This document shows positions 45,881 through 50,049 of a DNA stretch of 64,000 nt, piece after piece (within the stretch, counting starts at the first letter, position 1; the number at the start of each line of letters is the position of its first letter). Source of the stretch: Streptomyces sp. NRRL F-2580 (GTDB taxonomy: Bacteria; Actinomycetota; Actinomycetes; Streptomycetales; Streptomycetaceae); NCBI RefSeq assembly GCF_000720115.1, contig NZ_JOIR01000022.1:112288-176287 (forward strand), read 5' to 3'. A model generated the notes under the pieces. It was not told where the DNA came from, searched no databases, and saw only the letters and a list, made by a program, of their open reading frames with translations. The translations under genes and the position numbers were made by a program.

Positions 45881-45990
45881 GCGTGGGTGCAATGCGAGCT
45901 AACCGCCCTGGACTGTGGGTCACATCGCAGGTCAGACCCGCAACGAAGGCTGTTGCACCCCGGTGTTTGCAGGGGCGCGTTGCATCCTGA

Positions 45991-46034
45991 CCTCTGACAG
46001 GAGATCTTGACCGTTTGTCAAACGATCTTGACTG
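45991..46034 (+). repeat. Terminal inverted repeat, left copy (44 bp)
   Basis: CCTCTGACAGGAGATCTTGA is the outer part and CGTTTGTCAAACGATCTTGA lies inside. The sequence is repeated in inverted form at 47856-47899 with 40 of 44 bases identical. Within it GATCTTGAC occurs at 46003 and 46024, 21 bp apart, which looks like a double protein-binding site. Confidence 0.8.
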
Positions 46035-46505
46035 CCGGAAGTTCTGTTACGTGATCTTGGCCGGGGCGGGGGAAGCGGTGGCTGCTGCCGCGCCGGCAAT
46101 CTCGACGCAGCGCTGTCGGCATGGGAGCCGGGCCTCGTCGAGGCAGGTGACCGCCATTGGTTCCCGCGCGGGCAGGGCTGGAATCAGTGGCCCTCGACTG
46201 CTGATTTGGTAAGCGAGTTGCGCTGGGTCAAGGGAGGCCCCCCTCGCGGGCCCTACTGCGCAGCGACGGTGAGCGACCACGGGGGCTACGAGTCGCGGCT
46301 GGAGCAGCACCGGTTGATCCTGCTGGACCGCGAGCCTGAGGTGATCGGGGCGGTCTCGCAACCGGACGACACCGCCGACCGCATCAGCCCCAGGGTGTAG
46401 ACCCGTGGGCCGATGCTGCGCGGGAGGGACACGTGACAGCGTTCCCCTGTGCCCACGGACTGTCCGTCGCGGCACGGTTGCCGATTCGTCACTAGGGGAG
46501 GGCCC

Positions 46506-47723
46506 ATGACCACCACGCCGTTCATCAGCCGGAAGGGCATGACGCGCCGCAGCATGCTGGGAGCCGCGCTGGCCGCCGGGGCCGCCGTGCCGCTTGCCGC
46601 CGCCGGCCCCGCGTGGGCCGGCCCGGCCGCGATCGCTCCCGCCGCGCCGCGGCTCATGCTGCCCGTGCCGACCGGACCGTATCCGGTGGGCACGGTCCAG
46701 CTGCACCTTGTCGACCGGTCGCGTCCGGACGACATCGCGGGCCCCGGGCACTTCCGCGAGCTGATGGCCACCGTCTGGTACCCCGCCCGGAACGTCGAGC
46801 GGTACCCAGTGGCGCCCTGGATGCCAGCCGGCGCCCTTCAGGCGTTCCTCACCGACGTGGGATTCCGCGACCTGGTCCCCCTGGCGCCGCTCACTGCCGG
46901 ACACGTGGGCGCTCCGGTGCGGCGGTCGGGCCAACGGCTGCCCGTCGTCGTGTTCTCGCACGGCGCCCGCAGCCACCAAGGCGACCACACCATCATGGTC
47001 CAGGAGCTCGCCAGCCACGGATACGCGGCTGTGACGGTGGCTCACCAGTACGACACGTACACCGAGTTCCCTGACGGTCGGATCGCCGTCCCGCTCCGCG
47101 ACCGGCAGGCGCCGACGCTGCCCGGGGACTTCGCCGCCGACCTGCGCTTCGTCCTCGACTGCGTCGAGCAGCTCGCCGCCGGGTGCAATCCGGACGCCGA
47201 CCAGCGGGAGCTGCCGGCCGGGCTGCTCGGCTCCCTGGATCCGCGGCGCATGGGCGCGTTCGGCTGGTCGAAGGGCGGGACGGCCACCGCCTGCGCCATG
47301 CTCGCGGACGAGCGCATCCGGGCCGGGCTGAGCCTCGACGGCCCGATGCAGATGAACCCGCCCCTGGCCGGCGACCTGGACCGGCCGTTCATGATGATGT
47401 CCGCCGCGTTCACCCGGGCCACGGACCCCGAGGCCGCCGCATTCTGGTCGCACCTACGGGGCTGGCGCCTGAACATCCAGGCCCAGGGCGCGCTCCACGT
47501 CTCGTACGGCGACCATGAGGCGCTGTTCCCACAGGTGGCGAAGCTGTCCGGATGGAGCGGGCAGCAGCTCGAGGACGCGATCGGCACCCTTGATCCCGAC
47601 CAGGGGGTGAAGATCCAGCAGGCGTACCCGCTTGCGTTCTTCGACGAGCACCTGCGCCACCGTCGTGGGAACGTCCTCGACGGGCCGTCCCCAGGCTTCC
47701 CGGCAGTGACGTTCCTCCCGTGA
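46506..47723 (+). CDS. Tat-exported alpha/beta hydrolase (PAF-acetylhydrolase-like)
   Basis: The 405-residue product has a twin-arginine signal (TRRSMLGAALAAGAAVPLAA). The mature enzyme has the strand LPVVVFSHGARSHQGDH, the nucleophile elbow GAFGWSKGGTATA with Ser in GWSKG, and a late HVSYGDHEAL with the likely catalytic His. The layout matches platelet-activating-factor-acetylhydrolase-like esterases. The substrate may be a lipid or polymer ester. GGGGAGGG stands three bases before ATG 46506. It is the only gene between the 44-bp inverted repeats. Confidence 0.88.
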   Translation: MTTTPFISRKGMTRRSMLGAALAAGAAVPLAAAGPAWAGPAAIAPAAPRLMLPVPTGPYPVGTVQLHLVDRSRPDDIAGPGHFRELMATVWYPARNVERYPVAPWMPAGALQAFLTDVGFRDLVPLAPLTAGHVGAPVRRSGQRLPVVVFSHGARSHQGDHTIMVQELASHGYAAVTVAHQYDTYTEFPDGRIAVPLRDRQAPTLPGDFAADLRFVLDCVEQLAAGCNPDADQRELPAGLLGSLDPRRMGAFGWSKGGTATACAMLADERIRAGLSLDGPMQMNPPLAGDLDRPFMMMSAAFTRATDPEAAAFWSHLRGWRLNIQAQGALHVSYGDHEALFPQVAKLSGWSGQQLEDAIGTLDPDQGVKIQQAYPLAFFDEHLRHRRGNVLDGPSPGFPAVTFLP

Positions 47724-48325
47724 GTACCCGGGACCGCAGCACCGCGGGCCCTCGCAGACTCTTGAGGGAGCAGGACGGCACTGGGCCGCGTTCTCCCCGA
47801 ACCGCCTCGGTTTCAGCGCGCCGTGGGACGGCTCGTACGACACGTAAGGGATCTACAGTCAAGATCGTTTGCTAAACGGTCAAGATCACCTGTCACAGGA
47901 CACATCCACGGCGCGGGCATATTGCAGACGTTTCCCACCACCAGGAGTGCCCGGCTCTCCGCGGTGCCGTCCCCGGACTCACAGGCTCACAGCCAGGCAG
48001 CCGGGAAGCTGTTCACCAGGGACAACAGGCTCCCAGCTCACAGACCAACAGGTCGTGGTCCGGAGTCAGGGGGCGGGCCGCCGCCAGAGCGTTGTTCGGC
48101 GGGCCGCCGAATTGAGCCGTAGCTCAGGAGTTGTCACCGGCAGAGCCGAGGGAGCTGGCGAATCGGAACGGTCGAAGCAGCCTGGTCGTCACAAACAAGG
48201 CTTTCGACTTGCCACATGCGCTCATTCAGCAGCCAGAAAAGAATGATCGGGAGCCGCTGGCTCTCCGCAGCGCTTCCATGAAGTCATGGCCGCTGCACGC
48301 GCTGGCTCGGGGCGGATACCCGGCC
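47724..48325. other. Stretch without a gene
   Basis: It contains the right inverted repeat (47856-47899). The remainder has no frame with coding character that I can support on either strand. Confidence 0.4.
47856..47899 (-). repeat. Terminal inverted repeat, right copy (44 bp)
   Basis: Read on the minus strand it begins CCTGTGACAGGTGATCTTGA and contains two GATCTTGAC units 21 bp apart, like the left copy at 45991. Confidence 0.8.
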
Positions 48326-49014
48326 TCAACGCGGCTCAAGGCTCAGCCAGTATTCGAGGTTGGCGCGGCAAACGCCGATGTCTATGTCGTCGAAGTCCAT
48401 GGCGTGCAGGTCATGCACCAGCAGGCCGGCGTAGGCGGCAGCGGTCCCGGATGCGTCCCCGGCTTTTGCCCGAAGTGAAGCGAGGAACCACCGGGTGGTG
48501 AGAGTGTCGGGGTGCCCAGGGCCGAGGCTGCGCTCCAGGTAGGCGAGCCTGCCTCGTAGGCGGGAAGCGTGCCGGGGTGGTCGGGGCACAACACGGGGGC
48601 GTGGGCAAGCAGCGGCCCGCCGGGGACGGCCGTGGCCTCTTGCGGCGGGTTCGCGGTCTCCCGCCGCCACTGGGCGAGGCTGCGGCGGGTCAGTTCGGTC
48701 TGGACGTGGTCATGGCCTAGCAGACGCTCCCGGTCTGCCAGCAGTGACGTAAAGGCGGTGACGGCTCCCGCCACGTCGCCGTCCTCCCCCCGTAGGTGGG
48801 CAAGCTCGTAGCGGGTGTCCAGGACCTCTGGGTGGGCCGGGCCCAGCGCACGTAATTCTTCGACGAACAGTCTGACGAAGGTGGTAATGGCTCCCGCCCG
48901 GTCCCCCGACTTCCGCCGCACCTGCGCCAGGTTGTAGCGGGCGGCGAAGGTGGAAGGGTCGCTGGGCCCCAGGGACCGCGTCATGTCGGTGATCACGAGG
49001 CGCAGTTCGGCCAT
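48326..49014 (-). pseudogene. TPR protein remnant, frameshifted and 5'-truncated
   Basis: The minus strand encodes several 40-residue TPR-like units of the effector/NB-ARC type: SLGPSDPSTFAARYNLAQVR, ALGPAHPEVLDTRYELAHLR, LLGHDHVQTELTRRSLAQWR. After a frameshift near 48555 it continues with SLGPGHPDTLTTRWFLASLR and ends ANLEYWLSLEPR. These belong to the C-terminal TPR arrays of Streptomyces regulators or conflict proteins. The upstream domain is missing, and the 5' end abuts the RHS remnant at 49018. Confidence 0.75.
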
Positions 49015-49017
49015 GGT

Positions 49018-49932
49018 TGACGCCTCCGGTCGCGAGCTCATCCGCAGGATCGGTGGGACGGTCACGCTCGCCCATCGCTTCGACGCGGGCGGACGCCTGG
49101 CCCGACCAGCGGATAGCAGGCGGGGCCGCGATCTGCAGCGCCGCTCGTACACATACCGTGCCGACGGTCACCTCATCGGCATCGAGGGCGCGCTGTCCGG
49201 AACCCGCCGCTTCGTCCGCGCGGACGACCTCGACGCGACGGGCCGGGTCACCGCCGTGCACGCGGCCGGTTGGACGGAGACGTACGCCTACGACGCGGCC
49301 GGCAACCAGACGGCCGCGGCCTGGCCCGCGAGCCACCCCGGCCAGGAAGCCACGGGGCCGCGGCCTTCACCGGCACCCGCATCACCCGGGCGGGCGACGC
49401 CCGCTACGAGCACGACGCGCAGGGCCGTACCGTCCTGCGGCACAAGACCCGGCTCTCTCGCAAGCCGGACACCTGGCAGTACACCTGGGACGCCGAGGAC
49501 CGGCTGAGGTCCACCGTCACGCCGGACGGCACGGTGTGGCGCTACCTCTACGATCCCCTCGGCCGCCGCATCGCCAAGCAGCGCCTCGCCCAGGACGGCA
49601 CCACCGTGCTGGAGGAGACCACCTTCACCTGGGACGGCGCCACGCTGTGCGAGCAGGTCAGCCAGGGGGCGGCGCTGCCGCTGCCCATCGCGCTCACCTG
49701 GGAGCACATGGGCCTGCGCCCCGTCGCGCAGACCGAGCGCATGCTCGGCAAGGACGCGTCGCAGCAGCTCGTGGACGAACGGTTCTGCGCCATCGTGACC
49801 GATCCAGGCAAAGAGGACGAAGAGCAGATGCGGCGCACACTGCTGGAAATCCTGGGCCGCCTCTTCGACCTCTCCCTGCCCCAAGGTCGGATCCTTCAGG
49901 GGACCCTCGCTACGGCCACGCTGACGGCCTGA
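49018..49932 (+). pseudogene. RHS-repeat protein remnant, frameshifted
   Basis: Two frames joined near 49350 encode RHS/YD repeats: VDASGRELIRRIGGTVTLAH, GRVTAVHAAGWTETYAYDAA, then RYEHDAQGRTVLRHKTRLSR, TWQYTWDAEDRLRSTVTPDG and YLYDPLGRRIAKQRL. It ends with the conserved pre-core block (TWEHMGLRPVAQTER, FCAIVTD), after which the frame leaves the family (PGKEDEEQMRRTLLEILGRL). Intact RHS proteins deliver C-terminal toxins. The cage end and toxin are missing here. Confidence 0.82.
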
Positions 49933-50049
49933 TGTCGTAGTCCAGGGAGCCCTGGCCTCGGCCGGGCGAGGGCGAGCCCGGCACCGTGCACGGCGTGCCA
50001 ACGTCGCCGGAAGCCGGCGGACCGACGCCGCAGATCCGGGCGGAGGACT

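Follow-up and report, generated by a model that had tools for sequence, protein, structure and literature searches.

An esterase gene in a probable non-autonomous Tn7-like transposon of Streptomyces, with similar ends around other single genes

The interval 45988-47902 of the window (the whole 64,000-nucleotide stretch of Streptomyces sp. NRRL F-2580 DNA analyzed here) is best explained as a non-autonomous, internally deleted Tn7-like transposon that carries one esterase gene and is moved in trans by the TnsABC proteins of a related element, a reading to which we give a probability of nearly nine in ten. Its boundaries, the target-site duplications, two insertions of one and the same internal junction, the relic of a transposition gene, sister elements with other cargo, and one unoccupied site are all observed directly. 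The Tn7-like traits are repeat arrays near both ends and a 5-bp target duplication. The only core gene inside the element is a truncated tnsA relic, with no tnsB, tnsC, or tniQ, and the element is therefore non-autonomous. In its ancestor, tnsA-tnsB-tnsC-tniQ-like genes would have stood between a left and a right end. Everything from just after tnsA codon ~97 to the right end would then have been lost in a rearrangement that, in the order of events that we reconstruct, would also have brought in the esterase gene with its own upstream region. Because TnsB-type repeat arrays are kept at both ends, the unit could still be cut and inserted with a 5-bp duplication by the TnsABC of a related autonomous element.

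Boundaries and surroundings of the element

The ends were placed by comparison with a copy of the unit in Streptomyces sp. NBC_01483, in which similarity begins at TGACCTCTGACA and stops after TGTCACAGGACA; these limits put the ends at 45988 and 47902 and the length at 1915 bp. The initial annotation had outlined a unit at 45991..47899 with flanking inverted repeats identical at 40 of 44 bases, each holding two repeat units 21 bp apart. The inverted repeats are real and slightly longer, with 42 of 47 nucleotides matching between 45988-46034 and 47856-47902. This is far above chance: when the surrounding 3 kb was shuffled 60 times with dinucleotides preserved, 47-nt inverted matches reached 32 at most (mean 29.4). 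The paired units were also correctly described: GATCTTGAC occurs twice per arm at the 21-bp spacing (46003 and 46024; 47887 and 47866, minus strand). The outline itself stopped short of the true ends and missed the perfect 5-bp duplication CATCC just outside both of them (Table 1). As for the content, described as a single intact esterase gene, the reading frame is indeed intact and has a Tat-type leader and a ribosome site, but the tnsA relic lies inside the interval as well.

Within the source genome, the two arms of the element are the only full-length copies of the repeat (pattern with up to 3 mismatches); a shorter end pattern finds one extra degenerate end, on contig C69. No empty site for the window's insertion was found in 392 same-genus genomes, where the left flank recurs as short fragments only. 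Searches with 3.8 kb around the element against 61 genomes (four candidates scored per genome) or with 7 kb around it against plasmids returned, among the matches listed, the hydrolase or single neighbors and in no case both flanks together. With only short left-flank fragments elsewhere and no empty site found, the recent arrival that had been suggested for the gene is not established. The accompanying description of the neighboring genes as mostly decayed suits the right side, where overlapping TPR and YD-repeat-like frames (48326-49940; YD label by eye) are split and look decayed, but not the left, where MFS, DeoR, and HAD genes look intact by domain content.

Table 1. Positions of the parts of the element in the window, and of closely spaced junctions between element ends at other loci.
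Feature	Position	Strand	Basis or remark
Target-site duplication CATCC, left copy	45983..45987	.	same as 47903-47907
Left end, tnsA-side type, three 21-bp TnsB-type repeats	45988..46077	+	position-weight scan
Left-end 21-bp repeats	45992-46012, 46013-46033, 46042-46062		position-weight scan
tnsA relic	46078..46364	+	tblastn, NF033179, DNA match to annotated TnsA-like genes
Probable start of captured cargo block and hydrolase upstream region	46361..46505	+	L141 comparison
Cargo alpha/beta hydrolase gene, 405 aa	46506..47723	+	PF03403, PDB 5yae
Right end, two 21-bp TnsB-type repeats	47856..47902	-	47878-47898, 47857-47877, minus strand
Target-site duplication CATCC, right copy	47903..47907	.	same as 45983-45987
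Close junctions	L052:2477-2480, L031:2037-2041, L015:1495-1501, L066:7514-7520		
Close junctions	L073:5798-5805, L071:3842-3851, L155:9791-9807, L154:476-494		

The tnsA relic and the probable capture junction

The DNA between the left repeats and the hydrolase gene matches genes annotated 'TnsA-like heteromeric transposase endonuclease subunit'. By tblastn, 46104-46364 encodes TnsA residues 10-97 (of 249) with 55.7% identity to the TnsA of an autonomous relative in Streptomyces sp. AM 4-1-1 (L005), and the relic matches the NF033179 model (TnsA_like_Actin) with E 5.8e-10 and 39 bits, against a whole-protein cut-off of 110. The gene is dead, since it is truncated, has a 2-nt deletion near its start in the window relative to the NBC_01483 copy, and has an in-frame stop in NBC_01483. 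Because the nearest TnsA found is only ~56% identical to the relic, the exact partner lies outside our sample. Matches to the relic were found in 98 of the 392 same-genus genomes, which makes partners of one kind or another common across the genus.

The probable point of capture was located with a homologue at 85% identity in another same-genus genome (L141), which has the gene and its upstream region in common with the window down to ACCGGACGACACCG (window 46361), where the window's TnsA similarity ends. Upstream of ACCGGACGACACCG L141 had no TnsA tblastn match, and the matches elsewhere were chance ones (E 0.12 or more). Just upstream of the junction the identity is slightly raised (11 of 20 bp, ungapped), though not significantly so in most shuffle tests; local alignments of the last 30, 60, and 120 bp to L003, the window, and L004 were equaled by 21 to 345 of 500 shuffles. 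Since L141 has no detectable tnsA there and the window's TnsA similarity stops at this position too, the captured block, made up of the gene and the DNA upstream of it, was probably fused to tnsA at codon ~97.

Incomplete relatives of the unit were found as well. L058 is a truncated copy that has its right flank in common with NBC_01483 and has lost its left end. L004 (NBC_01445) has lost both ends and keeps ~20 bp of tnsA, as its alignment to L003 was reached by 0 of 500 shuffles. Three other plasmids carry hydrolase homologues at 74-78%, for which the alignment covers the gene only.

Insertion at two sites and alternatives to the proposed movement in trans

The whole unit is present on a plasmid of Streptomyces sp. 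NBC_01483 at 89.5% identity, with the duplication AGGGC/AGGGC directly outside its ends. The 600-bp flanks of the window and NBC_01483 copies have no blastn match to each other. The different flanks and the different 5-bp duplications mean that the esterase unit was inserted at two sites. The second site, its unrelated flanks and other duplication, and the exact duplication in the window bear out the proposal of the initial annotation, which did not name the Tn7-like family, that this is a non-autonomous cargo transposon.

The source genome has no high-identity partner transposase, and the relic points to a complete ancestor, so one might suppose that a full Tn7-like transposon arrived here, lost tnsB and tnsC in place, and never moved with its cargo alone. 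NBC_01483, however, has the same tnsA-cargo junction with other flanks and another duplication, so the deletion is older than one or both of these insertions. Likewise, three further cargo elements each occupy two sites with near-identical interiors and dissimilar flanks (L043/L044, 97.8%; L039/L049, 97.1%; L041/L042, 97.9% interior identity), with an exact duplication in one copy per pair only. We therefore regard such a remnant, dead since its arrival, as improbable.

Still less credence goes to homologous or site-specific recombination on the repeats, with no transposase, as the means by which the unit moved. Repeats of this length could recombine, and the copies in L058 and L004 are truncated, but the flanks at the two sites are unrelated, and the family bears the signature of transposition, namely exact 5-bp duplications and a clean unoccupied site. 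This unoccupied site belongs to a sister element with an ATP-grasp gene (L008), for which plasmids of NBC_00998 and NBC_00161 hold a single ACGAT; a plasmid of NBC_01296 holds the unoccupied site with a 2-bp gap at the ACGAT spot. The search for empty sites thus succeeded for a sister element but not for the window's own insertion.

Ends in common with autonomous Tn7-like elements

The same kind of ends as in the window element bounds three operons, in L005, S. anulatus NBC_01421 (L006), and Streptomyces sp. McG3 (L065), each with tnsA, a Mu-type tnsB, a TniB-type tnsC, and a gene for a ~188-aa cysteine-rich protein. In these relatives TnsA matches NF033179, TnsB matches Mu-transpos_C above and rve below the cut-off, and TnsC matches TniB. 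The L005 TnsB and TnsC also match chains of CRISPR-associated Tn7-like TnsB and TnsC in the PDB (E 3.4e-5 and 3.2e-4), and the ~188-aa protein of L005 has a weak TniQ match (E 0.0066) below the cut-off. L065, whose TnsB and TnsC are 95.6% and 96.1% identical to those of L005, has the target-site duplication GGCCC; the autonomous L005 and L006 have no exact duplication. The L005 TnsA (L005:12111-12857) reads VDVRAG at the position where we presume the catalytic lysine of a restriction-like TnsA site to lie, an observation that bears on cut-and-paste versus replicative movement.

The 21-bp repeats have the consensus CTTTGACAGGTGATCTTGACC and are presumably bound by TnsB. Counted from the respective end, they stand at positions 5, 26, and ~57 on the left and at 5 and 26 on the right in L005, L006, L065, and L008, and the window element has the same layout (three left, two right) except that its third left site is at 55. 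L003 has three left repeats and, owing to a 4-bp deletion, one right repeat. Across 23 elements scanned, the third repeat is present on the side listed as left in nine, and the remainder have two there. Since the first and second sites of these ends served to train the repeat matrix, the third site alone counts as independent evidence. Tn7-like termini are TGT...ACA; the window element has TGTCC at its right end and TGACC at its left, L008 has TGT at both ends, and L005, L006, and L065 have TGA at both.

Although the L005 and L065 TnsB match the NCBIfam IS481 model weakly, far below the cut-off, an origin of the ends in another DDE family (e.g., IS481-like) with the tnsA relic a chance neighbor is the least likely explanation of all, given the three operons bounded by such ends and a spacing of 90 bp between the left end and the start of the relic, where L005 has 105 bp before its tnsA.

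Candidate partners in the source genome and the genus

The best and only TnsB match in the source genome is 39% identical to the L005 TnsB over 67-661. With a simple script no end pair was found within 18 kb around it, and we therefore do not claim it as the mover of the element. On contig C42 of this genome (L153:8138-12034) lies a more distant tnsA-tnsB-tnsC operon, at 32-36% by tblastn, whose ends the simple script did not locate. Contig C69 holds a second, decayed Tn7-like element (L154:494-7536) with the duplication CCGGT and no TnsB match; its tnsA similarity comes in two separate tblastn pieces, 68% to the L005 TnsA over 7-150, and its interior holds a 734-aa TPR-like protein and an ISL3-like transposase (labels by eye).

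More widely, TnsB matches were found in 19 of the 21 genomes tested out of the 48 with the end motif; the top match of each genome has between 26% and 100% identity, and some are fragments. The two tested genomes with no TnsB match, G163 and G059, have small elements all the same. In another locus (L055:8717-9992) an internal deletion is visible, where TnsA and TniQ-like fragments adjoin and nothing that matches TnsB or TnsC separates them.

Similar ends around other genes

With up to 3 mismatches allowed, the end motif was found in 48 of the 392 same-genus genomes and a reversed control pattern in 0. When the named genome collection was searched for exact matches to the motif, 19 stretches came up, all from Streptomyces or Kitasatospora. 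The initial annotation had said that repeats confined to this locus would speak against mobility; they are not so confined in these collections, though the source genome has just the two full-length arms; as it had suggested looking for, the same ends lie around other genes and around tnsABC operons.

Exact target-site duplications flank 18 of 34 adjacent convergent end pairs, or 17 of 33 distinct insertions. L016 and L061, near both ends of one contig, have the same element, duplication, and 100-bp right flank (left flank 38/100); they look like one insertion and were counted once. In controls, cross-pairing gave 6 of 1122 and five shifted positions gave 1, 1, 0, 1, and 0 of 34. The 16 of 34 pairs without an exact duplication are those of L005, L006, L020, L023, L026, L027, L052, L066, L077, and L081, the first of L031, the second of L039, two of L071, and the two inner pairs of L073; in the failing pairs of L023, L026, and L031 the flanks agree at 4 of 5 positions. 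The outer pair of L073 (CCTAC on both sides), which is nested around two inner ends, was left out of the 18/34.

A TnsB tblastn match (L005 query) was present in one of the 17 exact-duplication insertions, L065, and the other 16 have no detectable tnsB. The resulting ratio of cargo-only to autonomous elements, 16 to 1, comes from a sample biased by the use of the window element's end motif and by a 9-kb limit. The insertions other than L065 carry genes for an R2K ATP-grasp protein, a NUDIX protein, a HEAT-repeat protein, a methyltransferase, DUF4232 proteins, a Vps62/Toxin_10 protein, and the esterase, and some hold only short or unidentified frames. Relatives of MITE size (291, 348, and 387 bp) also belong to the family. 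Four types of cargo (esterase, methyltransferase, HEAT, and DUF4232) recur at two or more sites, with interiors that resemble each other and flanks that do not; the multi-site copies without an exact duplication are L044, L042, L052, L027, and the second L039 element. The Vps62/Toxin_10 cargo (L048:1635-3819) is a 462-aa protein with matches to both Pfam families. PADLOC gave partial results for 2 of 10 cargo proteins, the NUDIX protein (PDC-S07) and the methyltransferase (mad2); we read these as domain matches only and did not retain the idea that the cargo consists of defense genes.

We lean, by a small margin of confidence, towards the broader view that Streptomyces and Kitasatospora host undescribed single-gene cassettes (0.3-2.2 kb, with Tn7-like ends), mostly without transposition genes and with one unrelated gene each, that are spread in trans by resident TnsABC. 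If so, the cassettes could act as a gene-capture or gene-shuttling system with an effect comparable to that of integron cassettes. Part of the single-gene gain in Streptomyces would then have a named vehicle that a short end motif suffices to recognize, and natural mini-transposons would become available for assays of the actinobacterial Tn7-like clade.

Several loci have ends lying back to back, as if new copies were landing right beside old ones. Among 127 distinct ends, found with a pattern allowing up to 7 substitutions, 8 of the 11 back-to-back junctions of up to 2 kb have 2-17 bp between the ends (Table 1). In L031 and L154 the second element is flanked by a matching duplication of its own. 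Tn7 shows target immunity near its own ends, and landing 2-17 bp from existing ends would be odd for a system with immunity of this type. Either the family is without target immunity, or its immunity ignores relatives, or it is drawn to existing ends. In Kitasatospora sp. Root107 (L073:5354-7210), a back-to-back pair has a single outer duplication, CCTAC, as if the two had moved as a composite.

Comparison with known systems

Mobile insertion cassettes and transporter IS consist of transposon ends around passenger genes, with no transposase. Their ends are of IS or Tn3 type, whereas the window element derives from a multi-protein Tn7-like system. Class 1 integrons are defective derivatives of Tn402; Tn5053/Tn402 elements are relatives of Tn7 and, with tni genes deleted, are movable in trans. 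The window element differs from class 1 integrons in having no integron platform or cassette array, only one gene. Actinobacterial Tn7-like transposons have in common with it arrays of ~20-bp TnsB-type sites and a 5-bp duplication, but the autonomous relatives have TnsA/TnsB/TnsC/TniQ-type genes, whereas the window element has no tnsB, tnsC, or tniQ and is only 1.9 kb long.

Prokaryotic MITEs, given as 50-500 bp in the available part of a review (PMC10969869), are like the window element in being non-autonomous, keeping their ends, and being mobilized in trans. The window element differs in its 1915 bp and its intact 405-codon gene with dN/dS below 1. It is thus neither a MITE in the strict sense nor an autonomous Tn7-like transposon. 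In the available text of the same review, the passage on Tn7 outside the references concerns target specificity (PMC10969869). The available part of a survey of Tn7-like elements describes a TnsB clade (clade 2) that is dominated by Actinobacteria and has no experimentally characterized member (Benler et al., 2021; PMC8649781); our elements would probably be related to this clade. The survey located ends from tnsB outward, in the intergenic DNA within 125 kb of the gene on each side, and since it starts from tnsB, elements without a nearby tnsB fall outside its design (Benler et al., 2021; PMC8649781). Among the matches listed in our search of the open-access literature, no account of such Tn7-like cargo elements was found. 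The logic of MITEs and mobile cassettes is known; the actinobacterial Tn7-like version of it is new as far as our limited searches show.

The cargo hydrolase

The hydrolase reading frame runs intact from the ATG at 46506 to the stop at 47723, with AGGGGAGGG directly upstream of the ATG as a good ribosome site (by eye). The product is by sequence a member of the PAF-AH II-like esterase family: its 424-aa GTG-start form passes the curated PF03403 cut-off (E 9.9e-13, 47.8 bits against a cut-off of 20), and the GxSxG serine is present. The nucleophile would be Ser255 in GWSKGG, with Asp278 and a candidate His331 (by eye from the alignment). A twin-arginine leader, also read by eye, together with the homology suggests that the esterase is probably exported by Tat and cleaves ester bonds extracellularly.

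The esterase structure PDB 5yae matches residues 54-404 with E 5.1e-36 and is labeled R18 of S. cinnamoneus in a figure legend (PMC8228269). The cargo enzyme resembles the feruloyl esterase R18 of Streptomyces cinnamoneus and PAF acetylhydrolases over these residues and has the GxSxG serine and the aspartate in common with them. Its dN/dS is 0.32-0.35 against L003, L058, and L004 and 0.24 against L141, values consistent with purifying selection on the hydrolase.
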